Source: a virus
Direction: 5' to 3' (one strand)
Virus record (IMG/VR): IMGVR_UViG_3300042923_001273
Location: 1 to 21,435 of that record
Length of the DNA: 21,435 nucleotides
Shown: one piece after another, positions 2,059 to 18,697 of the stretch
Numbering within the stretch: position 1 is the first letter of the stretch
Layout: every line of letters starts with the position of its first letter
Made by a program: the position numbers and the translations under genes
The notes under the pieces: model-generated
Told to the model about the DNA's origin: nothing
Databases searched by the model: none
What the model saw: only the letters and a program-made list of their open reading frames with translations

Positions 2059-2065
2059 AACGAAA

Positions 2066-2105
2066 GGCCTACACCGGGACATCAGTCCCGGTGTAGCGCC
2101 CTTTT
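2066..2105. terminator. Bidirectional terminator hairpin between convergent genes
   Basis: A perfect 12-bp stem, CTACACCGGGAC (2069-2080) and GTCCCGGTGTAG (2085-2096), closes on an ATCA loop. A T-rich stretch follows on each strand (CGCCCTTTTAT on +, GCCTTTCGTTTT on -). It lies between the stops of two genes that face each other, so it probably ends both transcripts. Confidence 0.85.
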
Positions 2106-2940: not shown

Positions 2941-3041
2941 AGCGGTTGATTCCTTGAGCGAGAAACGGGGTTAACATAAAAATACATGTACGCTACCAAT
3001 CTTACGACCAATACCCTTTTTAATTCTTCAAAGGAACGCAC
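2941..3041. promoter_or_regulatory. Divergent intergenic region with AT-rich promoter candidates
   Basis: These 101 bases separate two genes transcribed away from each other, so they should hold a promoter for each. The middle is AT-rich (GTTAACATAAAAATACATGT at 2969-2988). On the minus strand it reads TTATGT at 2979-2974, which fits the TATG-containing late promoters I recall for phiKZ-like phages. The plus-strand gene has AAAGGA about 7 bases before its ATG. The promoters are inferred from position and base composition. Confidence 0.4.
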
Positions 3042-4469
3042 ATGTTTTTCTTAGACCCTATTGTGGGCGGCGGGATTCCTAAAGAAGCGGCCGCTGATGC
3101 TTCTACACCTAAACTGAACGTCGGCTGCCTGTTCGACCACTTCTCTGGTCGTTATACCAAAGGCGCCCACGGCGAAATGATTCTCAACGGCGGGATGTCA
3201 CACATCTCGGCGGTAGTGGGTAAAAACAACCAGTACAAGTCAACCACCGCAGACTACTTCATGTCGGCGGCGCAGAACAACTACTACGATGTGGGCAACA
3301 GCTTCTACAACGAGACCGAAGGGTCCCGTGATATGGAAGGTCTGGAGTTCCGCATGAAGCACTTCGAGCGCAACCGCGCGGAAGGGATAATCGGCAACCC
3401 GAAATTCTTCCTGACCAACATGAACAAGATGTCCGGGGAAGAGTACTGGTCAGCCCGCCGTAAATACGGTGAGGCCAAAGTCAAGGCCAAAGGGTCGATG
3501 TTGGAAACCCCGTTCCTGAACGCAGACGGTACCTTTATCAAAGTCGTGGCGCCCACGTTTGAAGAGTGGGACTCCTGGTCCATGACCACCTTCGGGGCGA
3601 TTGAAGACAAGGTCTCCAAGCTGGATGTCGATGACTCGAAGAACAACATGCTCTTCGCCAACGACGGGATGTACAAAACCCGTATCCTGATGCAGATGCC
3701 AGGGGAAAATGGCCGTACCGGATTCTACTCGATGATGACCGCACACATCGGGAAGAAGATGAACATGGACATGAACGCGCCGCCTGAGAAAATCATGGCG
3801 TACATGCAGGCGGACTCGGTGCTGAAGAACGCCACCGAGAAGTTCACCTATATCCCAAACAACATGTGGTTGTGCCACTCCCAGAAGCCTCACCTGGACG
3901 ACAACGGGATTCCGGTGTACGGCCGTGGCCAGATGGGCGAGAAGTTCGAGAAAGACATGGTGGAAGTGACCATCATTAACCTGCGTGGTAAGTTCGGCCA
4001 ATCCGGTGCCCCGTTTAAAGCGCTGTACTCCCAGACCGAAGGCCTGCTACCGCACCTGACCCAGCTGCACTATATCCGTGCTGGGAACAAGTACTACGGC
4101 ATGGACACCAACACGCAGAACATGTCATTGGACTTCCTGCCGGACGTGAAGTTCACCCGTAACAGCATTCGCGGTAAGATTGACGAGAACTACAAGCTGC
4201 GTCGTGCCCTGCAACTGACAGCTGACCTCTGCCAGATGAAGAACGTGATGTGGTACCTGGGCGATGCCATCAACATGCCGCCACCGGATATCTTTACCAA
4301 AATCAAAGAGCGTGGCTATGACTGGGACGAAATCCTGGGCGGTACTCGTAGCCACTGGCAATTCAACGGCGTGAAGGAAGACAAACACTTCTTGTCCGCC
4401 TACGACCTCCTGCGCATGGCCACCGGGGAATACCACCCGTACTGGATGGCACCGCTAAAGAAAAAGTGA
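3042..4469 (+). CDS. UvsX/RecA-like recombination ATPase
   Basis: The 475-residue product carries a variant Walker A loop, G60-KNNQY-K66-S67-T68, in which an aromatic residue replaces the last glycine. T4 UvsX has the same kind of substitution (GPSKSFKS, from memory). About 20 residues later, DVGNSFYNETEGSRD matches the position of the UvsX/RecA strand that ends in the catalytic glutamate (LFYDSEFG in T4). Further on, FYSMMTAHIGKKMN and NMWLCHSQKP resemble later core strands of RecA-family ATPases. UvsX proteins coat single-stranded DNA and carry out strand exchange for recombination-dependent replication and repair. The length exceeds T4 UvsX (about 390 residues). The start has AAAGGA upstream. 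It leads a run of genes ending at 7039. The RecA-fold call rests on these motifs; the exact UvsX role is inferred. Confidence 0.72.
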   Translation: MFFLDPIVGGGIPKEAAADASTPKLNVGCLFDHFSGRYTKGAHGEMILNGGMSHISAVVGKNNQYKSTTADYFMSAAQNNYYDVGNSFYNETEGSRDMEGLEFRMKHFERNRAEGIIGNPKFFLTNMNKMSGEEYWSARRKYGEAKVKAKGSMLETPFLNADGTFIKVVAPTFEEWDSWSMTTFGAIEDKVSKLDVDDSKNNMLFANDGMYKTRILMQMPGENGRTGFYSMMTAHIGKKMNMDMNAPPEKIMAYMQADSVLKNATEKFTYIPNNMWLCHSQKPHLDDNGIPVYGRGQMGEKFEKDMVEVTIINLRGKFGQSGAPFKALYSQTEGLLPHLTQLHYIRAGNKYYGMDTNTQNMSLDFLPDVKFTRNSIRGKIDENYKLRRALQLTADLCQMKNVMWYLGDAINMPPPDIFTKIKERGYDWDEILGGTRSHWQFNGVKEDKHFLSAYDLLRMATGEYHPYWMAPLKKK

Positions 4470-4477
4470 GTTAAGTG

Positions 4478-4762
4478 ATGACCAAAGAAGAAGCGCGCTT
4501 CCACCTTATCATGGCGATGAGTCGCCATTCCCAACGGGCGGCGAATAAGTTTGAGCGCCGCTTTCACCATGAGCCGCGTGAGCGTTCCAGCCACAAAGCG
4601 GAAATGAAAGAAATCAACGAGTTCTGGCACAAAGAGCTTCAGCGCCTGAACCCTGTGGTGGCAAAGCTCGCCATGGAACTACCGGTTGACCGCGGTATTG
4701 ATGTCTGGATTAAACACTTTGAGCGTGACCTGATGGACAGCATCGTCACCCATTGGGGGTAA
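4478..4762 (+). CDS. Small charged hypothetical protein
   Basis: This encodes 94 residues (MTKEEARFHL start) and lies 8 bases after the UvsX-like stop. ATG 4478 is preferred to the GTG three bases earlier; neither has a strong ribosome binding site, so translation may depend on coupling with the previous gene. The protein is rich in histidine, arginine and lysine (RRFHHEPRERSSHKAE around residues 26-41) and looks helical. I recognise no family. Its place directly behind a recombination ATPase suggests, weakly, a DNA-related accessory role. Confidence 0.7.
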   Translation: MTKEEARFHLIMAMSRHSQRAANKFERRFHHEPRERSSHKAEMKEINEFWHKELQRLNPVVAKLAMELPVDRGIDVWIKHFERDLMDSIVTHWG

Positions 4763-4795
4763 CCGCCCCCATCGTCCAACTGCCGAGGTGTAGGT

Positions 4796-5293
4796 ATGGG
4801 CAAAATCTACGTGATGGTGTCGGGCAGCCGACACTATACCCGTTACTTTGAGTTCGCGAAGAAGATGGACCACATTCTGGCGAACTTCAATAAGAAAGAC
4901 ATCGTGTTTGTGGAAGGCGAAGCTGCCGGGACAGACTACCTGGGGTTCCTGTACGCGTTACGGCGGGGTCTGAAACACATCGGTTACCCCGCAGATTGGG
5001 ACGAACACGGCAAGAGTGCCGGCTACATCCGCAACGTCGAAATGATGGAAGTGGCCCAGTTCTGTATTGCTTTCTGGGACGGGAAGAGTCGGGGTACCCA
5101 ACACGTCGTGCGTAACTGCCATCGTTATGACGTAAGCCTTCGCACTATTCAAATTGAACCGGAGAACCGACATGCAAAACAGAGAAAAGGTCACGGCGCT
5201 TGGCGTAAAGTTGATGGAGCAACTCTTTCCCGGTACCGGAAACGGCGCGCTGCTCAAGGAGGACCTCGACCGACTGAGCAACCAGGAGTTTGA
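4796..5293 (+). CDS. SLOG-family (YspA/DUF2493-like) nucleotide-binding protein with overlapping C-terminal extension
   Basis: The first about 120 of 165 residues show the SLOG Rossmann-like pattern: an N-terminal strand ending in VSGSR (8-12), the glycine loop EGEAAGTD (40-47), the signature SAGYIRN (74-80), and FWDGKSRGT (93-101). SLOG proteins bind nucleotides or nucleotide-derived ligands; phage and bacterial members are suspected in NAD- or nucleotide-signal handling, but the ligand here is unknown. ATG 4796 has GAGG at a good distance. The core ends near residue 120, yet the frame continues 45 residues as an arginine- and lysine-rich tail. Almost all of that tail lies inside the start of the next gene in another frame, an overlap of 122 bases. 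The tail may be a read-through product of a lost stop rather than a functional domain. Confidence 0.82.
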   Translation: MGKIYVMVSGSRHYTRYFEFAKKMDHILANFNKKDIVFVEGEAAGTDYLGFLYALRRGLKHIGYPADWDEHGKSAGYIRNVEMMEVAQFCIAFWDGKSRGTQHVVRNCHRYDVSLRTIQIEPENRHAKQRKGHGAWRKVDGATLSRYRKRRAAQGGPRPTEQPGV

Positions 5294-5849
5294 TGCCCGC
5301 ATGAAAGACTGGGCCGTGGGCAAAGGGAGTCCGGTCGCCGTGCTGCCCAACCTCACCGAGAACGTGGTGACCGTGGACCACTTAAAGGCCGTGGCGGATA
5401 AGTGGAACGTCAACATGTACCAACGCATCCTGATGTCAGACCCGGATACCGGCCGTGAGTTTTTGTCACCGCTGCGGTATATGGTGCTGAAGATTGGGGT
5501 GGTGCGGTTGTCCCAGATGCAGGAAACCAAGCAGAGTATCCCGGAAGACAACATGTCCGTGGATGAACTCACCGGGCAGGTCACGGGGGATTCGAAAGGG
5601 TCCCGTCTCTCCTTCCCGGAACTCGGTAACCTGGCCTCGGGCGAACACGACAACGGGATTGTGGAATTGATTTCCGTGCGTGGGGGTGATGAAGCGGCCA
5701 ACCGCCAGCTGGAGTATGACATTGAAACCACCGGCGTTGGGTCGTTAGCGCGTGCCCAGGCGGCCGGAAGCGGCACCACCGTGAACCGTAACTTCGCCAC
5801 CTTCCTGCGCGTGGCGCACCTGGATACCACGCTGGATAAAGGACGTTAA
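5172..5849 (+). CDS. RNA polymerase beta-subunit C-terminal-like protein (part of a phage multisubunit RNA polymerase)
   Basis: The 225-residue product lines up by eye with the C-terminal part of bacterial RNA polymerase beta (RpoB). RILMSDPDTGREFLSP (85-100) matches LFDGRTGEKFDRP. RYMVLKIGVVRLSQM (102-116) matches GYMYMLKLNHLVDDKM. GQVTGDSKGSRLSFPELGNL (125-144) matches the [20 protein letters not shown] region. ELISVRGGDE (155-164) matches the TVKSDD region. In phiKZ-like phages beta and beta-prime are split over several genes, so a stand-alone piece of this size is expected. The subunit would join other phage pieces outside this window to form a rifampicin-insensitive polymerase. Whether it belongs to the virion or the non-virion enzyme cannot be told. 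ATG 5172 is chosen for GGAGA at 5161-5165; an upstream TTG has no such site. It overlaps the SLOG gene by 122 bases. Confidence 0.72.
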   Translation: MQNREKVTALGVKLMEQLFPGTGNGALLKEDLDRLSNQEFDARMKDWAVGKGSPVAVLPNLTENVVTVDHLKAVADKWNVNMYQRILMSDPDTGREFLSPLRYMVLKIGVVRLSQMQETKQSIPEDNMSVDELTGQVTGDSKGSRLSFPELGNLASGEHDNGIVELISVRGGDEAANRQLEYDIETTGVGSLARAQAAGSGTTVNRNFATFLRVAHLDTTLDKGR

Positions 5850-5850
5850 G

Positions 5851-6363
5851 ATGAACATCGTGTTGGAAGTCGCCAATCGGGCGATGCAGTATCGCCAGCG
5901 GGCGTCGGAGATTTGGTACCGGGAAAACAGCGAAGGGGAGCTGGCCCCGGAGTACAAAACCCTGGACAGTTTCCTGACGCAATTTGAAGCCGGCTCGCAA
6001 CTGCTGGAATTGATGGTGATTGATAACCTGCGGGAACTGGCGGAGAAAGTGTTTGGGGATATCATCACCCAGAACTTTGTGCTGGACTTGCAGTACTACG
6101 TCTTCTCTATCTACCCGGCGGAAGACGTGAAGGAGTTGGTGCGGCGCCTGGCATTTGGACTCTGTCTGCAACGGACGCCAAACTACGAAACGCCCGCTGA
6201 GAGTGTGGCCCCGGATGACAACACGGCCTACAGTTTAACCGAGGCAGACGTGCAGGCGGTGTTGACGGCCAACTTCTGGGTGGTCGGGTTACTGCTGCTG
6301 CCGTTGGCCCAAGGGACGGAGGTACCGCAGAATGGAACCAATTCGCCTGCTTCTGTCTCTTGA
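5851..6363 (+). CDS. Hypothetical protein downstream of the RNA polymerase fragment
   Basis: This encodes 170 residues; its ATG follows the polymerase-fragment stop by one base, with AAGGA upstream. The first about 120 residues look helical (QLLELMVIDNLRELAEKVFG). Near the C-terminus a leucine-rich stretch (FWVVGLLLLPLAQG, about residues 142-155) is followed by a low-complexity tail rich in N, S and P. I recognise no family. The gene overlaps the next one by 32 bases, so the pair is probably translated together. A link to the phage polymerase is suggested only by position. Confidence 0.75.
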   Translation: MNIVLEVANRAMQYRQRASEIWYRENSEGELAPEYKTLDSFLTQFEAGSQLLELMVIDNLRELAEKVFGDIITQNFVLDLQYYVFSIYPAEDVKELVRRLAFGLCLQRTPNYETPAESVAPDDNTAYSLTEADVQAVLTANFWVVGLLLLPLAQGTEVPQNGTNSPASVS

Positions 6364-7039
6364 TGATGTCTACGACACCCGCTTCTCCTTAATGAACCAG
6401 CTGAATGTTCACGCGGCGATTGCCGCGGTGAAAGCCGGGTACGGGACGCGGGTATCGGACCACGTTATCTGGCGCTCGTTGAAAATCAGTGAAGAGGCCT
6501 GGCGGGCCAAGTACCGCAAACGGGATGACCAGGTGCTGATGCGGTCAGTGCGCAGTAAGATGTACAACCTGTTGGTGGAATTGCACCAGGACGTTGAACG
6601 GGTGCCCCGCGACTTACCGGGGGTGCCCAACATCGAACTGACGGTGAACGAATGGCCGTATGCGCTGTCCAAGGAAGTGCAGGATGCCCAGCGGGAGGTG
6701 ATGCACCATTTCCTGCCGCCCAATGTCCCGATTCGGTTTATCCGGCGTAACCCCAAGCAATTGACGCCCCGCTTTCTGGCGGAGTCGTACAGCCACGTCA
6801 TCATGTACGATTTCACCGAGTGGTGTTTATTGCATGAGAACACCGAGGAACACGGTAACCTGCTCAGTGTGCAGTTTATCCTGCCGTCCTTGTTGCGGGA
6901 GCTGCCGACGGTTGAGGACGGCGAGGCGTTTAAGGAACCGATTGCTGAAGTGGGTATTATGGGTATGGTAGAGCGGAGCCTCGCCCCGGTGTTAGACCTG
7001 CGCTTTATCGAGGTCGACCACTGGAACGTGCCGAACTAA
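6332..7039 (+). CDS. Hypothetical protein, last gene of the UvsX/RNA polymerase operon
   Basis: This encodes 235 residues. ATG 6332 lies inside the previous gene in a different frame and has a strong ribosome binding site, GGAGG, at 6318-6322. The protein has a mixed helix and strand character with a basic central part (RRNPKQLTPRF near residue 136). No catalytic motif, signal peptide or membrane segment is apparent. It ends six bases before a perfect 14-bp hairpin. I do not recognise the family. Confidence 0.78.
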   Translation: MEPIRLLLSLDDVYDTRFSLMNQLNVHAAIAAVKAGYGTRVSDHVIWRSLKISEEAWRAKYRKRDDQVLMRSVRSKMYNLLVELHQDVERVPRDLPGVPNIELTVNEWPYALSKEVQDAQREVMHHFLPPNVPIRFIRRNPKQLTPRFLAESYSHVIMYDFTEWCLLHENTEEHGNLLSVQFILPSLLRELPTVEDGEAFKEPIAEVGIMGMVERSLAPVLDLRFIEVDHWNVPN

Positions 7040-7045
7040 CATACA

Positions 7046-7077
7046 CCAGTACAGGAGGGACCACCCTCCTGTACTGG
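7046..7077. terminator. Perfect 14-bp hairpin between convergent genes
   Basis: CCAGTACAGGAGGG (7046-7059) and CCCTCCTGTACTGG (7064-7077) pair without mismatch around an ACCA loop. Genes converge on it from both sides. Neither strand has a real T tract after the stem, unlike the other hairpins in the window. It may stop polymerase by its strength alone or protect the transcript 3' ends. Confidence 0.7.
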
Positions 7078-7083
7078 ACCGTA

Positions 7084-7653
7084 TTAGTTTTCTTGTTCGC
7101 CGCGGCGTAAATGTGGGTTGTCGCTTTCCATCTTCTCAAAGAACTGGTCGGCGGTAATCTCCACGGTGGTTTCGTCCATCTCCCCTTCCAGCACATGGGG
7201 ACGGGGCAGGCGCGATTTGTCCATGGCCCCTGACGTACGAGCCGGTGCGACCACCAGGGTTTTGCCCCCACGTTCGGCTTCGAGCTGCGCCCGTTCCAAC
7301 AGTTCCGCCACCTTCTGGTCATTGGCCAGCGATTTGTCGGCCTGTTTCAGACGGCGCTTCCCGAACACCTGTTTATCCATCCCGTCCAGGGTCGCCAGCA
7401 CCACCTTCACGGTGTCGAGGTCATCTGGTACCTTACCGCCTTTGAACAAGCCGTTGACAATCATCTTACGGATGTCTTGGGTGTAGTTGAAGTCTTCGTC
7501 ACCGGGTTGTTCTTCCGCCTCGCCACTGACCTCGTCTTCTTCACCTTCCGGTTTGTACACGGGGATATAACCCGACGGTTTTTTCGCCTCGTCGACTTCT
7601 TCAAAATCCCCGTCAGCAATGTTGTCTTCATCGACGAATTTAAACGCGTCCAT
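7084..7653 (-). CDS. Hypothetical protein with acidic N-terminus
   Basis: The product has 189 residues and starts at the reverse-strand ATG 7653, with GGGGAG seven bases upstream. The first about 55 residues are strongly acidic and probably disordered (EGEEDEVSGEAEEQPGDED). The middle (about 57-120) is helical and reads IRKMIVNGLFKGGKVP, then VLATLDGMDKQVFGKRRLK. That layout reminds me loosely of small phage packaging or terminase-accessory proteins, but the resemblance is weak. The C-terminal part is charged and linker-like. It is the only minus-strand gene between 2940 and 16480. Confidence 0.72.
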   Translation of the reverse strand: MDAFKFVDEDNIADGDFEEVDEAKKPSGYIPVYKPEGEEDEVSGEAEEQPGDEDFNYTQDIRKMIVNGLFKGGKVPDDLDTVKVVLATLDGMDKQVFGKRRLKQADKSLANDQKVAELLERAQLEAERGGKTLVVAPARTSGAMDKSRLPRPHVLEGEMDETTVEITADQFFEKMESDNPHLRRGEQEN

Positions 7654-7683
7654 TGGGTTCTCCCCCTAACTTAATCTTAAGAA

Positions 7684-7691
7684 TATATTAC
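7684..7691 (+). promoter_or_regulatory. Candidate phiKZ-type early promoter (TATATTAC)
   Basis: TATATTAC sits in a short AT-rich patch, 51 bases before ATG 7743, in the divergent gap between a minus- and a plus-strand gene. From memory, TATATTAC is the conserved core of the early promoters read by the virion RNA polymerase of phiKZ. It is followed by TGTAGTG. A similar arrangement (TATATATCC then TAGTG) occurs at 11789-11802. The motif is seen in the sequence; its use as a promoter is inferred. Confidence 0.5.
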
Positions 7692-7742
7692 TGTAGTGAG
7701 CACCAACATTGGGTTGCAGTTACAGCATGGAGTATACATACG

Positions 7743-8258
7743 ATGTTCGGACTACTTAGAAAGTACCGGGACCGGGCAAAGCTCAAACGGGCAAAGTTGT
7801 TGCTTGCCGAAAACGACGAGACGATAGATGTCAGTCCGGAAAATGTTTTAATCTTATGGGAAGGGTTAAGGGCTGCTCGTATTGAAGAGACGATACTGGT
7901 TCGCCACTTCTCCCAACGCCAGCGTTTCCACATGACGGCGCTGGAGTGTTTGAGTAAACTGGAACAAGCTACCGAGTTGGCGAAAGTGCATGTCGACCCC
8001 GAACGGGTGTTCTACCCGCCGGAACCGCGAGAGTATACCCTGGCTGGGTGGCTCAGTGACGGGAAAGGGCGTCGGTTGTCGTACATTGACTTTCTGTTGG
8101 AACTGGATGCAGTGATTCGTGAACACGCAGAGTACATGGAGCTTTCCAAGGAGTACGATGCAGAACACCTCTACGAGTACCGCACAGAACAACTGTACTA
8201 CCCGTACTGCGATATAATCACCTTTCTGGAGGTTATTCTTCGCCGACAATTACAATAA
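7743..8258 (+). CDS. Hypothetical protein behind the candidate early promoter
   Basis: This encodes 171 residues. The frame is open from 7653, but ATG 7743 is chosen because GGAG at 7729-7732 precedes it and because the extra upstream codons would overlap the divergent gene start. The N-terminus is basic (LLRKYRDRAKLKRAKLLLAE), and the C-terminal third is rich in tyrosine and acidic residues (ELSKEYDAEHLYEYRTEQLYYP) and probably helical. I recognise no family. The candidate TATATTAC promoter would make it an early gene, possibly for host takeover. Confidence 0.75.
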   Translation: MFGLLRKYRDRAKLKRAKLLLAENDETIDVSPENVLILWEGLRAARIEETILVRHFSQRQRFHMTALECLSKLEQATELAKVHVDPERVFYPPEPREYTLAGWLSDGKGRRLSYIDFLLELDAVIREHAEYMELSKEYDAEHLYEYRTEQLYYPYCDIITFLEVILRRQLQ

Positions 8259-8280
8259 CTTACTGAAATAAAGGTCTACA

Positions 8281-9063
8281 ATGAGAAACGGTCTACCAAT
8301 GCGATTCGCCCTCGGCATGGAATTTCATGACGAAGACGATACCGATGTCAGTGGGCTGAATATCCTTGCACTCATGTTCCGGAAGATAAAAGGGGATTTA
8401 AACATATCCTCTCGCGTTTGGTCGACGATGATGACGCGGTATCTGAAAGACCCCCGCAACGAAGTGACGCAAACGTCACGTGGGCGGTCCTCTGAACGCA
8501 GTAATCTGACGCGGGCTCTCGGCGCACCCGGCATGACCTTCAAGAACTTTGTCAAGGGCATTCGGTTACTCGACCCGAAAGAAGTGCAGTTGATTCTGGA
8601 ACTGGAGTTCCCGGATGAGACGCGGGTACGACATACCACGACCATCAACCAGGAAGCGCTGTACATGCACTTCCACAACGAGAAGTATCCGGAGCGACAG
8701 AACGTGCTCGCCACTATGTTCCGTGCGGTGAAAAACGTCATGGGCATTGGGGAAGAGAAATGGCGTGAACTGATGCAGGCGTACCTGGACAATCCCGCAA
8801 ACGGCTTTGTAGAGCTTTACGAAGCGGAATCGGGCGTAAAGACCAAGGTCACTGACAGCGGTAAACGCAGTTCCGAGCGCAGTAACCTGACGCGCGGTCT
8901 GGGGAATCCAGACATGACAATAAGGGTTTTCACCAAAGGCCTGAAAGTACTGAATCCAACGAACATTCATTTGACAACGAAGTTAGACTTTGGGAACGGC
9001 CGCACCAGTTCCCATACTGTCTCTGTTGTCGGCAGTGCCCTCGTAGCAGTGGGGGACGACTAA
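8281..9063 (+). CDS. Unknown protein made of two copies of one domain
   Basis: The 260-residue product contains an internal duplication. Copy 1 is about residues 27-120 and copy 2 about 141-250. Both open with N-[IV]-L-A-x-M-F-R, both have a tryptophan-led helix (WSTMMTRYL, WRELMQAYL), and both carry the signature RSSERSNLTRxLGxPxMT, then FxKGxxxLxP (69-99 and 196-226). Each ends in a strand-like stretch with a histidine (RVRHTT, RTSSHTV). The basic helix followed by LTRxLG could be a nucleic-acid-binding helical unit, but that is inference. The gene follows 7743-8258 by 22 bases and ends at a terminator, so the two form one unit, probably early. No known family is recognised. Confidence 0.8.
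   Translation: MRNGLPMRFALGMEFHDEDDTDVSGLNILALMFRKIKGDLNISSRVWSTMMTRYLKDPRNEVTQTSRGRSSERSNLTRALGAPGMTFKNFVKGIRLLDPKEVQLILELEFPDETRVRHTTTINQEALYMHFHNEKYPERQNVLATMFRAVKNVMGIGEEKWRELMQAYLDNPANGFVELYEAESGVKTKVTDSGKRSSERSNLTRGLGNPDMTIRVFTKGLKVLNPTNIHLTTKLDFGNGRTSSHTVSVVGSALVAVGDD
8359..9030 (+). repeat. Duplicated domain-coding segments within one gene
   Basis: 8359-8640 and 8701-9030 encode the two copies of the domain described for the gene at 8281. The best-kept DNA is the stretch coding SSERSNLTR, with GAACGCAGTAATCTGACGCG in copy 1 and GAGCGCAGTAACCTGACGCG in copy 2. Copy 2 has about 13 extra residues before this signature. Divergence elsewhere shows an old duplication. Confidence 0.75.
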
Positions 9064-9068
9064 CACTG

Positions 9069-9096
9069 AGGGGGCGCTGCCCCCTTTGTTTTTTTC
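9069..9096 (+). terminator. Rho-independent terminator
   Basis: AGGGGGC (9069-9075) pairs with GCCCCCT (9079-9085) around a GCT loop, followed by a T-rich run TTTGTTTTTTTC. It comes six bases after the stop of the duplicated-domain gene and ends that unit. Confidence 0.9.
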
Positions 9097-9111
9097 TTCG
9101 AGGGCAGGGTA

Positions 9112-10179
9112 ATGGCACAGAACGATTTGAACAACAAGCTCGCGGCATTTAAACAGACGACCCAACAGGCGGCCAAGGTTACGGATGCCACCAGTACGCT
9201 GGTGACCACCAAAGCCAAAGACACGTTGTTGGTGGTTGACGGGTATGGCAAAACCGCCAAAGACACGTTGACCAACATGAAGAACGACATTCAGGGGCGC
9301 ATCGCCGCGGCCAAGAACTGGTTGTTCAATACCGAGATTGGTGACCTGGGGTCGTTGAACGAAGCCCTGGCGACCGCCAATGCGGTGAAGAAAGACGTGG
9401 CGGCGCTGAACCAACAGTTGTCCGATGCGGTCAACGGCACGGTCTCGACGGTGCGGGGCATTTCCAGTGGGGTCTTAAACGCCGCACAAGACCAGCTCAG
9501 CGTGTTAAACAAGATTCCCTTTGACACGGTCACGAACGGGAAAGGCGGCGTGCTACGGGTGCTCCTGGGCGCTACCGTGCCGGAGATTAACAACCTGGTT
9601 GACATGACCAAGCGTTTCGTCCCTAACCTTAAATCGGAACTGAACCGTTACGAGGACCTCTACGCCCAAACCGCGCTGAAGGTCTCCTTGTTAGGGAATG
9701 CGGCTGGGTTAGGCATGACCGAGGTGATTGACCGGGTAATGGAGACGGACCCCAACAACGTGGTGTTAAAGACCGCGCTGATTGACCAGTTCGACACCGC
9801 CATCCGCAACGGGGACCTCAGTATCATCAACAGCATCCTGAACAACCTGGGCGTCGAGTATACGCTGGGTCGCTACCCGAATGCGGTGCAGGAGATTCTT
9901 CAGAACTACCGGATGCCGCTTGGCACCACCGCCGTGGACTACCCGGCAGCCGCCACGGCGTTACTGACCACCGTGCAACGCTTTGACCCGACCTGGGACA
10001 AACTCGCCGGTTACCCGCAGTTCAATAACCTGTCAGTCTTTACCCTGGCGTCGGAAGACACCCGCCTGGCGTTTGGTACCCTGCCAGACTACCAACGGTT
10101 AATGGCCGTGGCGCGGCACTACTCCCCGCTCCCGCTGAAGACCGAGCTCAAACAGATGTATCGCTACGCCTTGCTGTAA
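9112..10179 (+). CDS. Helical protein, probable virion component
   Basis: The 355-residue product begins MAQNDLNNKL. The first about 120 residues form a low-complexity helical region rich in A, T, K and Q, with a short repeat (TKAKDTLLVV and TAKDTLTNM). Such regions often make coiled coils in tail or head proteins. The rest is a helical domain without catalytic motifs. GAGGGCAGGG upstream gives a ribosome binding site. It directly follows a terminator with almost no promoter room, so it may be read by leakage through that terminator or from a promoter inside it. A virion role is inferred from composition only. Confidence 0.75.
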   Translation: MAQNDLNNKLAAFKQTTQQAAKVTDATSTLVTTKAKDTLLVVDGYGKTAKDTLTNMKNDIQGRIAAAKNWLFNTEIGDLGSLNEALATANAVKKDVAALNQQLSDAVNGTVSTVRGISSGVLNAAQDQLSVLNKIPFDTVTNGKGGVLRVLLGATVPEINNLVDMTKRFVPNLKSELNRYEDLYAQTALKVSLLGNAAGLGMTEVIDRVMETDPNNVVLKTALIDQFDTAIRNGDLSIINSILNNLGVEYTLGRYPNAVQEILQNYRMPLGTTAVDYPAAATALLTTVQRFDPTWDKLAGYPQFNNLSVFTLASEDTRLAFGTLPDYQRLMAVARHYSPLPLKTELKQMYRYALL

Positions 10180-10189
10180 AAAAATACGT

Positions 10190-10488
10190 CACCGTGGTAA
10201 GTATGTCCCCGTGTACAGAGACCTGCTGAAATCCTCCCTATCGTCTAAATCTTACCCCCCCCCCTGAATGAGCGTTTAGCGACCCTCCCCTCAGGATGAT
10301 AAAAGACACTTCTCTTGTCTGAGCGGCGGAGAAAGAAATGTAGGTGGCCCTCGAAAGCCTAATTGGGAGTCCCCAGCGCGCTATGGCCGCTACAGCGGAT
10401 ACAATACTTCAGGTTCTGAGCCGGTGTACCACGGGTACGTTGCAGAGGGAGGGGCTTCGGCCCCTCCCTTATGCTGTTTCTTTTTTCA
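10190..10488 (+). ncRNA. Candidate structured RNA or long leader in a 415-base gap
   Basis: No convincing gene lies in 10180-10594, which stands out in a window where most gaps are under 60 bases. The stretch contains several local hairpins: CCTGA/TCAGG (10263-10267 with 10291-10295), AGACA/TGTCT (10304-10308 with 10316-10320), TGGG/CCCA (10364-10367 with 10372-10375), CCGC/GCGG (10387-10390 with 10395-10398) and CGGTGTACC/GGTACGTTG (10422-10430 with 10434-10442, three wobble pairs). It ends in a strong UUCG-capped hairpin. It also has a run of ten C at 10255-10264. No RNase P, tmRNA, tRNA or hammerhead core is recognisable. Short stems of this kind occur by chance, so the RNA is a hypothesis. 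Confidence 0.35.
10446..10486 (+). terminator. UUCG-capped terminator-like hairpin
   Basis: AGGGAGGGGC (10446-10455) and GCCCCTCCCT (10460-10469) pair perfectly around TTCG, a very stable tetraloop. The T-rich run TTTCTTTTTT lies at 10477-10486, seven bases past the stem, so termination may be less sharp than at the other sites. It separates the 10180-10445 stretch from the gene at 10595. Confidence 0.75.
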
Positions 10489-10502
10489 CGTAACACCTTC
10501 AC

Positions 10503-10510
10503 TTATGTAG
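10503..10510 (+). promoter_or_regulatory. Candidate late-type promoter motif (TTATGTAG)
   Basis: TTATGTAG follows the hairpin and T tract and precedes ATG 10595 by about 85 bases. The same TTATGTA core occurs at 15920, again just after a terminator and before a gene. TATG is the core I recall for phiKZ late promoters. The motif is short and can occur by chance. Confidence 0.25.
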
Positions 10511-10594
10511 ACGCCAACCACGGCACTGTAGCCACAAAGTGGGTAACGCTACACCCTTGTATAAAACCCGTAACCCTTGTAAAGGAAAAGTCAC

Positions 10595-11728
10595 ATGCGT
10601 AAAGTCACTGAAGTTGAGCAGACCTTTGAGAAGTACGGTATTCAAAGCCAAGGCGATGAAATCCTGTTTAACCAGACGTTCTTTCTCCACAGCGACGATG
10701 TCCAGACCGAAGCCAACATCAACAGCTACGTGATGGGTGAGAGCAAGAACACCCAGCTCTTTGACAGCCTCACCAACCTGAATGGGCTGAAACCGTTCCA
10801 GTGGGCGACCCGGTCCTTACAGCACGTCGTTAAGACCCAGCCCCATGACATGTACTGTCCCGAACCTGCGTCGTTCACTGACGAGTACGTGGACCTGCTG
10901 AAACTGTTAAACTGTGTCGGGCATTTCACGGGCATGAACGTGACGTTCTACGGGACCCCGCACAAAGGGGAGCAAACGCTGCGCATTGATGTCCCCAGCG
11001 ATGTAGAAAACCCCGCCGCCTTTGTTAAGAAGGTGCAGGAACTCTACCAGGCCAATCGCCGTAACGTGGCCTACCTGAACGCCACCGCGGTGTGCTGCAC
11101 CGTCAACGGGATTGACACGCTCTACCGCATCATGTGGTCGCTGAACCGCCTGTTGTTGTCCGCGTGCAAAGACGCCGAGAATTTTGTTCCGGGTCAGGTC
11201 TCACTGTTCACTCCCCGCCTGACCAAACTGAAAACGGTCAAGGTGGTAGGGCACATCGACCAATACTGCGGCGGTCTCCACACGGAATATCTGCTGTATG
11301 CCAACGCGGAGACCTTCTCCCAGTGGATGCACCGGTTGAGCAGAGGCGGTCACCAACGGCCAACGCTGTACACCGAGCGCCTCACGCAAAACGTAGAGTT
11401 TGTACGCCGTCAGCTGTGTGAAGTACTGGAACGTCGCCTCACCCCCGACGACTACCGGGATTTCACCGCCACCTGGGTGTTGAACAACTGTGAAGCAGGT
11501 CCCACGGAACACCACACCGGGTACTTCATCCAGTTGAAGCGCCTGTACGATGAAAGTGATAAACACTTACCGTTCGCGAAGTGGGTGAAAGCCTGTTTAA
11601 AGGGCGACCAGGAAGAGGGTGACACGAGCGCTTTCACGCTCGCCTGGGATGCCCACCTTAAACTGCACCCGGGTTCCGTCAACGACATGAGTAAGTTCAC
11701 CCAGCTTCTGGAAGAGTTAGTCCAATAA
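10595..11728 (+). CDS. Hypothetical 377-residue protein
   Basis: The start ATG 10595 has AAAGGAAAAG upstream. The protein appears globular, with a mixed helix and strand pattern and seven or more cysteines (for example AVCCTVNG around residues 166-173 and DQYCGGLHTEYLLYANAE). The cysteines do not form an obvious zinc motif. No signal peptide or membrane segment is visible. It stands alone between a terminator-like hairpin upstream and another downstream, so it is probably a single-gene unit. I do not recognise the family. Confidence 0.82.
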   Translation: MRKVTEVEQTFEKYGIQSQGDEILFNQTFFLHSDDVQTEANINSYVMGESKNTQLFDSLTNLNGLKPFQWATRSLQHVVKTQPHDMYCPEPASFTDEYVDLLKLLNCVGHFTGMNVTFYGTPHKGEQTLRIDVPSDVENPAAFVKKVQELYQANRRNVAYLNATAVCCTVNGIDTLYRIMWSLNRLLLSACKDAENFVPGQVSLFTPRLTKLKTVKVVGHIDQYCGGLHTEYLLYANAETFSQWMHRLSRGGHQRPTLYTERLTQNVEFVRRQLCEVLERRLTPDDYRDFTATWVLNNCEAGPTEHHTGYFIQLKRLYDESDKHLPFAKWVKACLKGDQEEGDTSAFTLAWDAHLKLHPGSVNDMSKFTQLLEELVQ

Positions 11729-11738
11729 CAGCAGGTTT

Positions 11739-11766
11739 AGCAGGGTGGGCAACCGCCCTGCTTTAT
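11739..11766 (+). terminator. Terminator hairpin after the 377-residue gene
   Basis: AGCAGGGTGG (11739-11748) pairs with CCGCCCTGCT (11753-11762), including one T-G wobble, around a GCAA loop, followed by a weak TTTAT. The T tract is short, so leakage is possible. Confidence 0.7.
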
Positions 11767-11788
11767 GCCGGTTCCAATCAATCTAAAG

Positions 11789-11802
11789 TATATATCCTAG
11801 TG
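11789..11802 (+). promoter_or_regulatory. Candidate early promoter, TATATATCC-TAGTG
   Basis: TATATATCCTAGTG lies about 20-30 bases before ATG 11820 and resembles TATATTACTGTAGTG at 7684-7698: both start TATAT and end TAGTG. It would drive the six-gene run 11820-14363. The match to the phiKZ TATATTAC core is imperfect. Confidence 0.4.
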
Positions 11803-11819
11803 GTGAAATAGGAACACTA

Positions 11820-12164
11820 ATGAGTCCTATCCATAAACTCTTGCTGTTATTCCACCACCAGGGAAACACGTTTACCATGTTACACACTCACCCCGCTCGC
11901 GAGATTAACTTCATGCAAGCTTTAGCCAATGGCACACTCGCCAGTATTCTGGGTGCCGACGATGACACCGCCGTGTTCAACGGCAAAGATTACCAGCAGT
12001 ACAGCACCGCCGTCCTTTACGTGATGCGCAAAGGGCTGGAAAGCAAAGTTCGAGAAATGACCCGTGGTATCCCAGGCGTCGCAGAGTACGGCGTACCCAA
12101 AGCTGTCCACGATGAACTGCGTGCCGTGAAGCACGCCTTACGCAACAAAGAGTTCTACTACTAA
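11820..12164 (+). CDS. Small unknown protein, first gene of the six-gene operon
   Basis: This encodes 114 residues from ATG 11820, with AGGA six bases before it. An alternative ATG at 11877 has a weaker, more distant site but a TTTACCATG context like two later genes, and would remove 19 hydrophobic N-terminal residues. The body starts NFMQALANGTLASILGADD and ends KHALRNKEFYY. This layout is shared with the gene at 12538 (DFMQHTYSELSVMLSA to KIKAGEFAY), so the two look like diverged paralogues. The function is unknown; its place directly behind a candidate early promoter suggests an early gene. Confidence 0.72.
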   Translation: MSPIHKLLLLFHHQGNTFTMLHTHPAREINFMQALANGTLASILGADDDTAVFNGKDYQQYSTAVLYVMRKGLESKVREMTRGIPGVAEYGVPKAVHDELRAVKHALRNKEFYY

Positions 12165-12173
12165 GGAGTATTG

Positions 12174-12524
12174 ATGAAAACAATTCGGATATTTGACCCA
12201 TCTGGACAGACCCCGCGGCTCTGGGACCTGGCGCCGTTGGCAGAGTTTGACCCCCGGGACCGGGAAGAGGATGGCGGTGTCCGGACGGTGTATGACGGTG
12301 ACAACTACATGGACCTGACCTGCCAGGAGTTGGTGGTGGTCATCCAGGGGCTGGAGCCGCAGAGTGAACAGTGGCGCATCGCGATGAATGCGTACACGGT
12401 AAAAGACCGCCTGGGCTATACCCGTATCGTGGAGAACGAGCGCCATATCCCAGAACCTGTTGAACCTTTCCATTCTCACAACGAAGGCTTAGAACGTCTG
12501 CGTCGTGCTTTAAAGACCAAATAA
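12174..12524 (+). CDS. Small unknown protein, possible distant paralogue of its neighbours
   Basis: This encodes 116 residues. ATG 12174 is preferred to TTG 12171 because AAGGAG at 12163-12168 is correctly spaced. Residues around 46-62 read NYMDLTCQELVVVIQGL, which matches the [FY]MxxTxxELxV pattern of the gene at 12538. The N-terminal part (FDPSGQTPRLWDLAPLAEF) is not shared. The C-terminus is basic (GLERLRRALKTK). It starts nine bases after the previous stop, in the same operon. Confidence 0.75.
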   Translation: MKTIRIFDPSGQTPRLWDLAPLAEFDPRDREEDGGVRTVYDGDNYMDLTCQELVVVIQGLEPQSEQWRIAMNAYTVKDRLGYTRIVENERHIPEPVEPFHSHNEGLERLRRALKTK

Positions 12525-12537
12525 GGAAACCGACCCT

Positions 12538-12774
12538 ATGTCCACTGCTACCATCCCAACCGTGTGGAACGGCCATGACTTTATGCAACACACCTACTCG
12601 GAGCTGAGCGTGATGCTCTCCGCGGCCCGGGATGAAGCCATTCTTCAGCAACACCGTTTGTTCCAGCGTAACCCCGACAACATCACGGCCTACAACGCAC
12701 TCCCGTACCGCAAACCGGACGTGATTCATGCGGCCATGATTGCCAAAATTAAAGCCGGCGAATTCGCCTACTAA
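12538..12774 (+). CDS. Small unknown protein of the FM-motif family
   Basis: This encodes 78 residues, with AAGGA upstream of ATG 12538. It carries DFMQHTYSELSVMLSA at 14-29 and ends KIKAGEFAY. Both regions resemble the gene at 11820, and the first also resembles the gene at 12174. It looks fully helical. Tandem diverged copies of small proteins are typical of early host-takeover regions in large phages, but no activity can be named. Confidence 0.75.
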   Translation: MSTATIPTVWNGHDFMQHTYSELSVMLSAARDEAILQQHRLFQRNPDNITAYNALPYRKPDVIHAAMIAKIKAGEFAY

Positions 12775-12813
12775 TTCTCTTACCCCGTGGCTTGACCACT
12801 AAAGGATTTTACC

Positions 12814-13110
12814 ATGCAAATCGAACTGAAAACCGTTGCCGTTCTGACCCTGTCTGCCAAAGAAGCCGAGCACGCCCTGACCTCCCTGGAAGCTCAACTG
12901 GCCGGTCCCCGTACCGCGTACGTGATTCTGAACTCCGAGTCCTACCGTAACCTGTGGGCGCAGCTGACCCGTCGCCCTATCAGCTACACCCTGACCTGGA
13001 CAGAAGGGTTACGGGTGCGGGCCTACCTGGCGCAGTATGTGGAAAAAGACAAGAAGCATGACGTGCGCATTACCCCGAACGTGCTGCGTGATATGCCTAT
13101 CTACCGTTAA
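12814..13110 (+). CDS. Small hypothetical protein
   Basis: This encodes 98 residues (MQIELKTVAV start) behind AAAGGATTTTACCATG, a leader almost identical to that at 13501-13517. The sequence suggests a compact helix and strand fold with a basic, aromatic middle (YRNLWAQLTRRPISYTLTW). No known family. It is fourth in the operon. Confidence 0.75.
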   Translation: MQIELKTVAVLTLSAKEAEHALTSLEAQLAGPRTAYVILNSESYRNLWAQLTRRPISYTLTWTEGLRVRAYLAQYVEKDKKHDVRITPNVLRDMPIYR

Positions 13111-13124
13111 CAGGGAGCCTGACC

Positions 13125-13499
13125 ATGAAGCTACCGGAAAAGGACCAGCACCAGTATATTGAAACACTGCAAAGCTGGCGCAACAATGTTGAGGTGGCCA
13201 CCAAGTTTGCCCGCAACATTGAAGCCAAACTGGTTCATGCCAAAGGCCGGGGGAGTCCGTCCCTGGTCAAAGCGTTACACGCGATGCACCCGTTGATTAT
13301 TGACGCGTATGTCGACCTGGTGCGCAAGGGCGTCTATGACCCCAGCCCAGAAGACATGCGTCGCATCATTGCGAAAGCGGCCTCACCAACGCAGGCCACT
13401 ATCGTACACCGCCACCGGGATTGGATAGTGAACCACTACTACCTCCAGTGTACCCGGGTTTACCAACAAATTCTGTTTCCAAAACCAACTCATTCTTAA
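13125..13499 (+). CDS. Small basic hypothetical protein
   Basis: This encodes 124 residues, with AGGGAG well placed before ATG 13125 and a gap of 14 bases from the previous stop. It appears helical and basic (KFARNIEAKLVHAKGRGSPS around residues 26-45) with an aromatic end (HRDWIVNHYYLQCTRVYQQ). Nucleic-acid or protein binding is possible; nothing specific is recognised. Confidence 0.75.
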   Translation: MKLPEKDQHQYIETLQSWRNNVEVATKFARNIEAKLVHAKGRGSPSLVKALHAMHPLIIDAYVDLVRKGVYDPSPEDMRRIIAKAASPTQATIVHRHRDWIVNHYYLQCTRVYQQILFPKPTHS

Positions 13500-13514
13500 C
13501 AAGGGGATTTTACC

Positions 13515-14363
13515 ATGATGCTGGACACTGCCACCTCACTGAACGAAATGATGACTAAGCAACTTAACGACCTGAAGAACACCCTTGATTACACCCGGAT
13601 GTTTCGGGCCATCACGCATCTTCCGACTAACATGCCTGACGGCCCCGACCGACTGAAAGAAGTGGTCTCTGCCACCATCGACAGCGTCCTGGACTCACCG
13701 CATAACGCGCACATTAACGTGGTTCGTTTTAGTGTGCGCCAGCAGTTCCCGGAGATTCACGACCGTTTTATCAATAAAATCGCGGAGGAGATAAGCGATG
13801 TGTTGAACTCGTCTCTTATGAAAATCGTGGCGCCGGGATATGTCATTACCAAGGACATCCTGTCAACCGAGATGGAGTTCATCAGCCAGTACGCCACCAA
13901 AACGGATCTCCAGCAATTATTAGACGAAGACCTGAAAGCCAAAGGGTTCGACGACGCGACTGTGTCCGCCTACTCCGGTCGCTTAACGGAGTGGTTACGT
14001 TATGTACTGGAATGTGCGAACACGGGTCAGGCACCGGACCTGAGCGAAGAACTCGACCTGGCGCTCGCCGGAGAACCGTTACTGAAAGATTACTTCGTGA
14101 CGGCACTCGCCTCCGAAGTGCGCAAAGCCATGCACTCTCGCCGTCAGGGTGCGCTGCAAGACTTCGGCAGCAGCCTGGTGAAACCGGTGCGTCAGCCACA
14201 ATCTGAACCCGGTGCCAACACCGTGAGTGAAAGCTTTACCTTCACCAGCGTCGAAGCTAACCGCTTACGTGAAATGCTCTATAACCTCCAACTCGACAGC
14301 AATGAAACGCTGAAGGTGACCCGGACCGATGAAGGTCTGGTTATCCAGTTCCTGTTGAAGTAA
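13515..14363 (+). CDS. Hypothetical 282-residue helical protein, last gene of the operon
   Basis: ATG 13515 follows AAGGGGATTTTACC; a second ATG comes directly after it. The protein is largely helical. A linker near residues 220-240 (VKPVRQPQSEPGANTVSES) separates the main body from a small C-terminal domain of about 45 residues that ends NETLKVTRTDEGLVIQFLLK and looks like a beta hairpin after a helix. No known family is recognised. It closes the operon at the terminator at 14370. Confidence 0.78.
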   Translation: MMLDTATSLNEMMTKQLNDLKNTLDYTRMFRAITHLPTNMPDGPDRLKEVVSATIDSVLDSPHNAHINVVRFSVRQQFPEIHDRFINKIAEEISDVLNSSLMKIVAPGYVITKDILSTEMEFISQYATKTDLQQLLDEDLKAKGFDDATVSAYSGRLTEWLRYVLECANTGQAPDLSEELDLALAGEPLLKDYFVTALASEVRKAMHSRRQGALQDFGSSLVKPVRQPQSEPGANTVSESFTFTSVEANRLREMLYNLQLDSNETLKVTRTDEGLVIQFLLK

Positions 14364-14368
14364 CTTCA

Positions 14369-14399
14369 GAGGGCGGTCTTTACCGCCCTTTTCTTTTTT
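14369..14399 (+). terminator. Rho-independent terminator
   Basis: AGGGCGGT (14370-14377) and ACCGCCCT (14382-14389) pair around CTTT and are followed by TTTCTTTTTT. It ends the six-gene operon. Confidence 0.92.
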
Positions 14400-14423
14400 G
14401 GCCAGTGAAGAAAGGAATGGATC

Positions 14424-14825
14424 ATGGCTTTAGATTTTCCCCTACGCCTTGAAAGTCTTGCTGACCAACCGTCGCAAGACAGTGCGTTGATTTGTATCGA
14501 GCACCGGGTGTTGATAACGTTAGACTACTGGAGTGCGATGCGAAATATGTTCCGGGTGGGCACGCCGGAATACGCTCGAATCTTAGACCAACAAACCGAA
14601 ATCTTTGGCGATGCCATGGAGATGTGGTTTCAGGAACTGCGCCGCACCAAGATTATCGCGGTCGGGGATATGTACTTCAATCCGATGGCGGTCGTTGAAG
14701 AAGCGGGTTACGGTCTGACGGTGGCGGTGACCCGTTCGATGATTACCACCGTGGCCCATCGTCAGGTGGGTGACGATTACGAACTGCATTTACTGTGGAA
14801 TTCAAAACTTAATGAGGGGGTTTAA
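14424..14825 (+). CDS. Small hypothetical protein, first of a three-gene unit
   Basis: This encodes 133 residues, with AAAGGA eight bases before ATG 14424. It starts MALDFPLRLESLAD and has a helical middle (YARILDQQTEIFGDAMEMWFQELRRTK) followed by strand-like segments (IIAVGDMYFNPMAVVEEAG). No domain is recognised. Its stop is directly before the start of the exported-protein gene, so translation of the two is probably coupled. Confidence 0.75.
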   Translation: MALDFPLRLESLADQPSQDSALICIEHRVLITLDYWSAMRNMFRVGTPEYARILDQQTEIFGDAMEMWFQELRRTKIIAVGDMYFNPMAVVEEAGYGLTVAVTRSMITTVAHRQVGDDYELHLLWNSKLNEGV

Positions 14826-14826
14826 A

Positions 14827-15333
14827 ATGGGTATGTCAATGAAAGCGGTAACCGGGATTCTGTTGGTGTTAGTGGTGTGGGCCATGCAAACGTTACGGGC
14901 TGACGCCTCAGAAGCGGTACAAGGGCGCAACGGCTCCATCGTCTTCTCCTGTCCGGTGGAAGGCGGCAAGTTCGCGCAGGTCCTGGTGAAGGACAAGATG
15001 CTTCAGTACAAGTTCGGGACAGACCCCCGCCAACCTGAGATTGCGGTCCCTGCCGACCCGCGTGACCAGAGCCAGGTTCACTATGCGTACACCGCGTACG
15101 CTAAAGGCGGTTCCCTGTACATTCGCTTTACCAACGGGGACTACAGCTACGTGGTCTACTCCGGGCAAGGCGAGGGCTGGGCACGCGAAGACATCACGGT
15201 GTTCAAAGGGCTGGACAAAGTGAAACGCATCAACTGTGTTAAGCAGGCCCGGAGCACAGCGGTGTATGACTTTATCGCTTACGGTAACGATGACAGTGCC
15301 AATGGGCTGGATATCGTATACGGACAACAGTAA
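14827..15333 (+). CDS. Small exported protein with signal peptide
   Basis: The 168-residue product starts at ATG 14827, behind GAGGGGG at the right distance. It has a clear Sec-type signal peptide: MGMSMK, then a hydrophobic core (ILLVLVVWAMQTL), then ADA at 25-27 as a cleavage site. The mature protein has two cysteines, C42 and C137, that could form a disulfide in the periplasm. The pattern, with a cysteine near the start, then YKFG, then SLYIRFTNGDYSYVVYSG and a final cysteine, reminds me of small exported proteins of unknown function in Gram-negative bacteria. The gene may therefore come from a host. Exported phage proteins often act in superinfection exclusion or lysis control; which applies here is unknown. 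Confidence 0.8.
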   Translation: MGMSMKAVTGILLVLVVWAMQTLRADASEAVQGRNGSIVFSCPVEGGKFAQVLVKDKMLQYKFGTDPRQPEIAVPADPRDQSQVHYAYTAYAKGGSLYIRFTNGDYSYVVYSGQGEGWAREDITVFKGLDKVKRINCVKQARSTAVYDFIAYGNDDSANGLDIVYGQQ

Positions 15334-15345
15334 CGCTGAGGAGCA

Positions 15346-15885
15346 ATGATGCCACGCTACAGTCAACGGGAGGAAGAACTCGCTACTTTCTTCTTACAGG
15401 GCCGGCAAGGTAATGTCCTCCTGGGGTTCTATTGCGGGTATTCCACCGAGGAGGTTGCGCACTTTCTGGTGAGCAGTACGATACGGGCGGACAAACACGT
15501 CGGGGCCAAAGTGATAGACCGGATTCCCTATTTCGCAGAATGGCGCGCCCTGCGAAACAAGCACCCGGTCGCCTGGCCGGTGGTACCGACCGTGAAGGAC
15601 TTCCATGAGGGCCTGGAGGCGGCGCGAGAACGTATCGCCGCAGCACGCATGGCAGAAGAGGACACCAGTACCCTGGCAGGCATTGAGAACGTTGCAGAAG
15701 CCGCAACCCATCAACGCAACGACGGGTATGAGTACACCACGTTCCACCGGGATGTGATACGGGATGTCGTGCAGTTGGCAGAGCGCTGCGGGTTACGGGT
15801 CACTGACCGTCCGGGTAAGTTACACGGTCGCCCCCAGACCTTTCGCCGACTGGATTTCCTGAATCTCCTGCCGGAGAACGAATAA
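15346..15885 (+). CDS. Hypothetical protein, last of the three-gene unit
   Basis: This encodes 179 residues, with GAGGAG upstream of ATG 15346; an ATG three bases later is an equal candidate. The protein looks helical: YSQREEELATFFLQGRQGN and YSTEEVAHFLVSS near the start read like short helices joined by a turn, as in DNA-binding helix-turn-helix units, but no family can be named. The C-terminus is basic (GLRVTDRPGKLHGRPQTFRRLDFL). It ends at a terminator. Confidence 0.75.
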   Translation: MMPRYSQREEELATFFLQGRQGNVLLGFYCGYSTEEVAHFLVSSTIRADKHVGAKVIDRIPYFAEWRALRNKHPVAWPVVPTVKDFHEGLEAARERIAAARMAEEDTSTLAGIENVAEAATHQRNDGYEYTTFHRDVIRDVVQLAERCGLRVTDRPGKLHGRPQTFRRLDFLNLLPENE

Positions 15886-15886
15886 A

Positions 15887-15918
15887 AGAAGGGGGCTGTC
15901 GCCCCTTCTTTTTTTTTT
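15887..15918 (+). terminator. Rho-independent terminator
   Basis: AGAAGGGGGC (15887-15896) pairs with GCCCCTTCT (15901-15909), with one bulged G, around TGTC, followed by about ten T. It ends the three-gene unit. Confidence 0.92.
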
Positions 15919-15919
15919 G

Positions 15920-15927
15920 TTATGTAC
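15920..15927 (+). promoter_or_regulatory. Candidate late-type promoter motif (TTATGTAC)
   Basis: TTATGTAC sits immediately after the T tract of the terminator and 23 bases before ATG 15951, the only space in which a promoter for this isolated gene could lie. It shares TTATGTA with 10503-10509. It is short, so this is tentative. Confidence 0.3.
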
Positions 15928-15950
15928 CCGTCACCCGTGAGGTTTTCCCC

Positions 15951-16442
15951 ATGCACGAAATGTTATTATCGGCCCGGAAGAAAGGTGGGATTCTTCCCGC
16001 CTATTCCGACTTCCAGACCTATCTCAACAAAAACGTTCCCGGCACGCTAACGGCAGGGACCTCTGCCCAGAACACGACGGGGTATCGCCAGACGACCTTG
16101 AACATTGTCGACCAGGGAACGATGTGGGGAACATGTTGGCTGAATTACTTCACGTACGATTCCATCCTGATCCGTGTAGCCCGCCATGCGTTCCCCGACA
16201 AAGTTACCGCCGATGAGAACATCACCGCCAAGCGGGTGGTGGCCGCCAAGTATGTTTTTCAGGGAAGCCGCCCGGCTTACCAGGGGTTGACACGTAATGG
16301 CTATACCTCGTCTAACTACGGTTCCTTCTCAGGACAACAGATGGTTGATTTCATTTATTGGGATGCTGTCCTCGGTAAAGTCATGCGCCTGAACCCGTTC
16401 CTGGGCGAAGCGCCCAAAGAGTTCGATGGAAAGTTGGTATAA
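15951..16442 (+). CDS. Hypothetical protein, single-gene unit
   Basis: This encodes 163 residues from ATG 15951, with GTGAGG eight bases upstream; ATG 15960 is an alternative. The N-terminus is basic (MLLSARKKGGILP). The middle contains aromatic, tryptophan-rich segments (GTMWGTCWLNYFTYDSILIR around residues 56-75) and repeated serine, glycine and tyrosine (YTSSNYGSFSG). No signal peptide or family is recognised. It lies between two terminators and faces the minus-strand virion genes. Confidence 0.75.
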   Translation: MHEMLLSARKKGGILPAYSDFQTYLNKNVPGTLTAGTSAQNTTGYRQTTLNIVDQGTMWGTCWLNYFTYDSILIRVARHAFPDKVTADENITAKRVVAAKYVFQGSRPAYQGLTRNGYTSSNYGSFSGQQMVDFIYWDAVLGKVMRLNPFLGEAPKEFDGKLV

Positions 16443-18651: not shown

Positions 18652-18660
18652 TACCTCGAC

Positions 18661-18694
18661 TCCATAAAAGAAAAGGGGCGGTTTCCCGCCCCTT
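18661..18694 (-). terminator. Rho-independent terminator on the minus strand
   Basis: Read on the minus strand, AAGGGGCGG pairs with CCGCCCCTT around GAAA, followed by TTCTTTTATGG. It comes just after the stop of the hydrolase-bearing gene and before the ribosome binding site of the 723-residue gene. The second gene therefore probably depends on read-through or its own promoter. Confidence 0.85.
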
Positions 18695-18697
18695 CTG

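Follow-up and report, generated by a model that had tools for sequence, protein, structure and literature searches.

A predicted promoter-terminator unit for a short non-coding RNA at the border between two operons of a phiKZ-like jumbo phage

The 415-nt gap at positions 10180-10594 of the window, by which we mean the whole 21,435-nt stretch of viral DNA analysed here, is best explained as an operon boundary with a promoter-terminator unit that would make a non-coding RNA of ~270 nt, an explanation to which we give an even chance. The order at the boundary would be the stop codon of the upstream gene, a promoter (P1), a short non-coding unit, a terminator, a second promoter (P2) and the next gene. 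Most likely, transcription by the non-virion RNA polymerase of the phage itself would run from G10205 to a UUCG terminator. The first bases of the RNA would pair with the bases preceding that terminator, so that a closed domain would lie ahead of the terminator hairpin. This hairpin, at 10445-10470, would serve the mRNA of the upstream core block as well, and P2 would initiate the gene at 10595. We infer the activity of P1, efficient termination, stability of the RNA and any regulatory role in trans. The gap itself holds no gene, carries a terminator and promoter motifs that are rare in shuffled sequence, and shares its layout with the corresponding locus of Erwinia phage PhiEaH1. The two promoters, the terminator, the RNA with its stem arms, the 5' UTR and both flanking genes described below all lie on the plus strand.

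The 21.4-kb window, a fragment from IMG/VR, has a gene order collinear with that of PhiEaH1 (Iapetusvirus). The annotation of this phiKZ-like jumbo phage lists a nuclear shell protein, PhuZ and multisubunit RNA polymerases. Judged by its sequence, the source of the window is likewise a phiKZ-like jumbo phage, with PhiEaH1 as its nearest named relative. Window genes from 107 to 10179 correspond to the PhiEaH1 block rnhA-gp165, with 33-73% protein identity, and 16480-21430 holds counterparts of gp148 and gp147; between them, 10595-16442 is a lineage-specific island holding a few weak matches. The gap is the border between the conserved core block and this island, and an operon boundary. The last gene of the core block (9112-10179) encodes a phiKZ gp164-like virion-associated protein with 52% identity to PhiEaH1 gp165 and tblastn matches in 119 phage records; the annotation of its relative in phage Moabite names phiKZ164. 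The first gene of the island (10595-11728) is of unknown function, with 22% identity to PhiEaH1 gp149 (E 3e-7) and no family in Pfam or PHROG. Elsewhere in the window, the protein encoded at 8281-9063 consists of two similar halves (SSERSNLTR..L..P.MT occurs twice), an internal duplication, and the gene at 15951-16442 has an unannotated 39% homologue at PhiEaH1 127963-128436, within the largest 'gap' of that genome.

The original prediction had described 10180-10594 as the only large gap, as free of any plausible gene and as matching no recognisable RNA class, and all of this held. No other space between predicted genes of the window exceeds about 110 nt. Across the 218 kb of PhiEaH1, nine gaps reach at least 300 nt, or roughly one every 24 kb, so that about one would be expected per 21 kb and the length of the window gap is usual for the lineage. 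The longest ORF within the gap has 49 aa, starts from GTG and is without relatives; we also considered a hidden or decayed gene and rejected it, since no frame resembles neighbouring or PhiEaH1 genes. An Rfam search returned no family above the gathering threshold, permissive thresholds gave nothing for the gap, and the predicted RNA had no match at E<=3. Searches for tRNA or tmRNA and for sigma-70 promoters within the gap were negative, and protein and DNA-pattern searches of the phage collection, IMG/VR, GTDB genomes and plasmids yielded no alignable or close relative spanning it. A run of ten C at 10255-10264 is of a type prone to sequencing or assembly errors.

The terminator-type hairpin with a UUCG loop, also part of the original prediction, is found at 10445-10470 (GAGGGAGGGGCTTCGGCCCCTCCCTT), where sequence and folding give a GC-rich stem of 11 bp (-23.4 kcal/mol) followed by the U-rich tail TTATGCTGTTTCTTTTTT, as in an intrinsic terminator. 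UUCG terminators of the same kind number 24 in PhiEaH1 and are standard for the lineage. The TATG at 10470 was rejected as a promoter because it belongs to the terminator tail (TTATGCTG). Among the TATG sites in PhiEaH1 same-strand gaps, one set consists of hairpins directly trailed by TTATGCTG, and we assign these to terminators since they are also present at convergent gene ends. TATG lies in the tail of 28 of the 121 PhiEaH1 intergenic hairpins, and TTATGCTG(C), found directly after many terminator hairpins, may serve the phage polymerase as a terminator signal. Hairpins directly trailed by TTATGCTG(C) occur in the window at 10445-10477 and 11740-11771 and in PhiEaH1, for example, at 84920, 98208, 108754 and 179585.

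The promoters are predicted from a two-part motif. In phiKZ, late transcription starts at the G (+1) of TATG, and the motif of the middle promoters is AAanTTACc, placed near -24 (PMC4666361). In same-strand gaps of PhiEaH1, TATG is enriched in the sense direction (24 vs 6), and a second set of these sites has an A/T tract ending in TAC 14-16 nt upstream. The resulting motif, A/T tract-TAC-N14-16-TATG, joins the phiKZ middle upstream element to the late TATG start; it comes largely from PhiEaH1, where it was derived by inspecting intergenic regions, and its statistics are partly post hoc. We used a strict form, [AT]6-TAC-N14-16-TATG, and a wider form, [AT]6-[ATC]AC-N14-16-TATG, in which one base class was broadened so that P2 would match. 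In PhiEaH1, all eight matches of the strict and wider motif are intergenic, though only 6.9% of the genome is. The strict motif has a single match in the window, P1, and the wider motif has two, P1 and P2, both in the gap; 0.3% of shuffled gaps hold one match of the wider motif and 0.01% hold two, and shuffled windows hold a mean of 0.1.

P1 (10179-10205) reads AAAAAATAC-N14-TATG, with TATG at 10202 and a predicted start at G10205, 26 nt past the stop codon of the upstream gene. P2 (10481-10507) reads TTTTTTCAC-N14-TATG, with TATG at 10504 and a predicted start at G10507, and would serve the next gene. Both thus have an AAanTTACc-like upstream element, AAAAAATAC in P1 and TTTTTTCAC in P2, each 14 nt from TATG. 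PhiEaH1 gp149 is preceded by a terminator and TTATTAC-N16-TATG, in the same place and order as those before the window gene at 10595. Independent support for the form of P1 comes from four distant jumbo phages (loci L015/L016, L018, L025 and L027), in which AAAAAATAC-N15-TATG is found just before uvsX; the motif stands at 9906 in L015, 9905 in L018, and 9908 in both L025 and L027. Across the distant-phage loci, which were fetched by their uvsX gene, 10 of the 16 motif matches lie within ORFs. The last 124 nt of the gap (10471-10594) form a unit of their own, in which P2 is followed by the 5' UTR (10507-10594) of the gene at 10595; this UTR has an AAAGGA ribosome-binding site at 10581-10586 and an ordinary fold (z = -0.21).

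Other promoter candidates in the gap were rejected: the middle motif AA..TTACC at 10248 occurs inside genes too and is unenriched in PhiEaH1 gaps, and the TATG at 10382 is without an upstream element. The early promoter of the lineage is a clear 46-nt motif, CTAA-N11-GTATATATTAC-N5-TGA, with 18 good sites in PhiEaH1 that on inspection lie upstream of genes; the best score for such a virion RNA polymerase promoter in the gap was -8.6, whereas 16 of the 17 PhiEaH1 training sites scored 32-47. Two early promoters of the PhiEaH1 motif do lie elsewhere in the window, at 7666-7711 and 11773-11818, and the former implies a true start downstream of 7711 for the gene at 7653-8258.

P1, the next terminator at 10445-10470 and the absence of a plausible ORF together predict a non-coding RNA of roughly 270 nt (10205-10470, ~266-275 nt). 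No ORF with a convincing ribosome-binding site lies between P1 and the terminator, so that, by prediction, the unit has the promoter of its own, the terminator of its own and the lack of an ORF that define a small-RNA gene. That the gap makes a short phage non-coding RNA is plausible on these grounds, at about an even chance. The earlier proposal of a new phage RNA is plausible through the predicted promoter P1 upstream of the terminator, a feature outside the original argument; the argument then offered for it, many stems and a switch, fails against shuffled sequences and folding energies. The multiple hairpins do not exceed chance: z against shuffled sequence is -0.62 for the whole gap, -0.57 without the terminator (10180-10445) and +0.97 for 10260-10445, and the body of the predicted RNA (10205-10443, z +0.43) folds no better than shuffles. 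PhiEaH1 gaps of at least 150 nt mostly fold more strongly, many with z below -2.5 and several at -3 to -6. The proposed switch pairs CCTCCCT, which lies at 10233-10239 and not one base earlier as first given (10232-10238), with AGGGAGG at 10446-10452; forcing this fold costs about 21 kcal/mol (-79.3 vs -100.6), and the pairing is at chance level, since 43% of shuffles hold a 7-mer able to pair fully with the terminator arm. No second fold close in energy to the one with the terminator, as a riboswitch or attenuator would have, was found in the gap.

The closing stem pairs a 5' arm beginning at +1 (10205-10216) with a 3' arm just before the terminator (10426-10438); its pairing probability is about 0.45-0.81 and 0.3% of shuffles equal it, for a stem noticed after folding. 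A longer stem, in which 10186-10199 would serve as an alternative 5' arm for 10427-10440 (12 of 14 pairs) only in read-through RNA from the upstream gene, was rejected. This gap-end duplex (-33.2 kcal/mol) is somewhat rare, as 0.4% of shuffles and 0.7-2.4% of genome windows form one as stable (p about 0.004-0.02); it needs RNA from upstream of P1 and is lost once the folded sequence is extended by 200 nt of the gene before the gap.

In PhiEaH1, 244 nt separate gp165 from the likely start of gp164, and a match to the promoter motif, with a start at 136565 on the minus strand, comes right after the gp165 stop. In the RNA predicted from 136565, the first six bases pair with bases 56-61, followed by an 18-bp hairpin and a U-rich tail; an early promoter lies beyond the hairpin. 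The fold after gp165 has z of -4.5 from +1 and -5.5 for a 160-nt stretch that is identical at all 160 positions in three isolates. Neighbouring genes, compared between two of the three, differ by 0.5-4%, a contrast that is only suggestive. This non-coding stretch (locus L007, 8063-8222; PhiEaH1 136437-136596; z -5.5) is a better RNA candidate than that of the window itself. The window RNA and the PhiEaH1 RNA have no common sequence. In the more distant phages Moabite, FBKp24, PCH45 and SPLA10, a hairpin lies directly 3' of the same gene. Elsewhere in PhiEaH1, at 3623-3781, a second gap has a promoter motif past a stop codon, followed by about 80 nt free of genes and then by a strong terminator that immediately precedes the next gene. 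A wider proposal, which we consider rather doubtful, gives PhiEaH1-like phages a non-coding RNA gene whose position behind the gp164/165-type virion gene is conserved and whose TTAC-N15-TATG promoter is read by the phage polymerase. The +1 end of the RNA would close onto the bases before the terminator, its sequence would evolve fast, with complete turnover from one species to another, and it may act on host or phage mRNAs.

A plain operon boundary remains close behind the reading with an RNA unit. The core operon would have a long 3' UTR running to the terminator, P2 would follow, and the P1-like motif would be inactive or would add read-through, with no discrete functional RNA. This we hold to be possible, at somewhat below an even chance: the hairpins directly after the same gene in Moabite, FBKp24, PCH45 and SPLA10 fit it, terminator-then-promoter arrangements are common in PhiEaH1, and the gap body is neither unusually folded nor conserved, but it accounts neither for the P1 motif nor, given how compact the genome is, for the roughly 240 nt from stop to terminator. 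The gap could alternatively be an attenuator leader, in which P1 drives the gene at 10595 through a conditional terminator controlled by protein or RNA and P2 is a second, unregulated promoter. Promoter, leader and terminator do stand in the right order upstream of that gene, and phiKZ p40 has a 180-nt 5'-UTR RNA possibly ended by premature termination (PMC8545117). We nevertheless judge this improbable, as there is no competitive antiterminator, the suggested pairing being both 21 kcal/mol worse and common in shuffles, and the PhiEaH1 homologue gp149 has a terminator and promoter without such a leader. Least probable of all, and by our estimate very improbable, is that the gap is what is left of a decayed gene or of a DNA insertion: the 12/14 inverted repeat does flank the gap and the gene content of the island varies among relatives, yet no frame resembles neighbouring or PhiEaH1 genes, the sequence has no obvious target duplication, and no DNA relatives of the gap were found.

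To our knowledge, nucleus-forming jumbo phages have so far yielded very few non-coding RNAs. A predicted promoter-RNA-terminator unit in the same place in two divergent phages would add a second lineage, with a target that is testable in the isolated phage PhiEaH1. A 2020 review described the middle and late promoters of these phages as unpredictable from sequence (PMC7598289); the two-part motif singles out intergenic sites cleanly in PhiEaH1.

Among known systems, phiKZ makes non-coding RNAs derived from UTRs, and a Grad-seq study reported two candidates (PMC8545117). The PHIKZ298 3'-UTR RNA (about 100 nt) resembles the predicted window RNA in that it comes from a nucleus-forming jumbo phage, lies downstream of a gene, ends at the intrinsic terminator of that gene and lacks an ORF; no separate start has been mapped for it and it is regarded as a processing product (PMC8545117), whereas the window RNA has a predicted promoter motif. 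P1 and P2 each combine both elements of the phiKZ middle and late promoters (PMC4666361), with TATG at the predicted start; unlike in phiKZ, the elements are joined 14-16 nt apart, and we infer that the polymerase of the window phage recognises them. The PhiEaH1 region after gp165 (136411-136596) is alike in locus, in its promoter motif after the stop codon, and in its non-coding stretch, strong hairpin and further promoter; it differs in its unrelated sequence, in a shorter (about 100-125 nt) and strongly folded RNA, and in being followed by an early rather than a TATG promoter. MicX of Vibrio cholerae, an sRNA from an mRNA 3' end with its own promoter (PMC9438474), likewise has a promoter near the gene end and a common terminator, but sRNAs of that type, unlike the predicted window RNA, are bacterial and made by the host polymerase.
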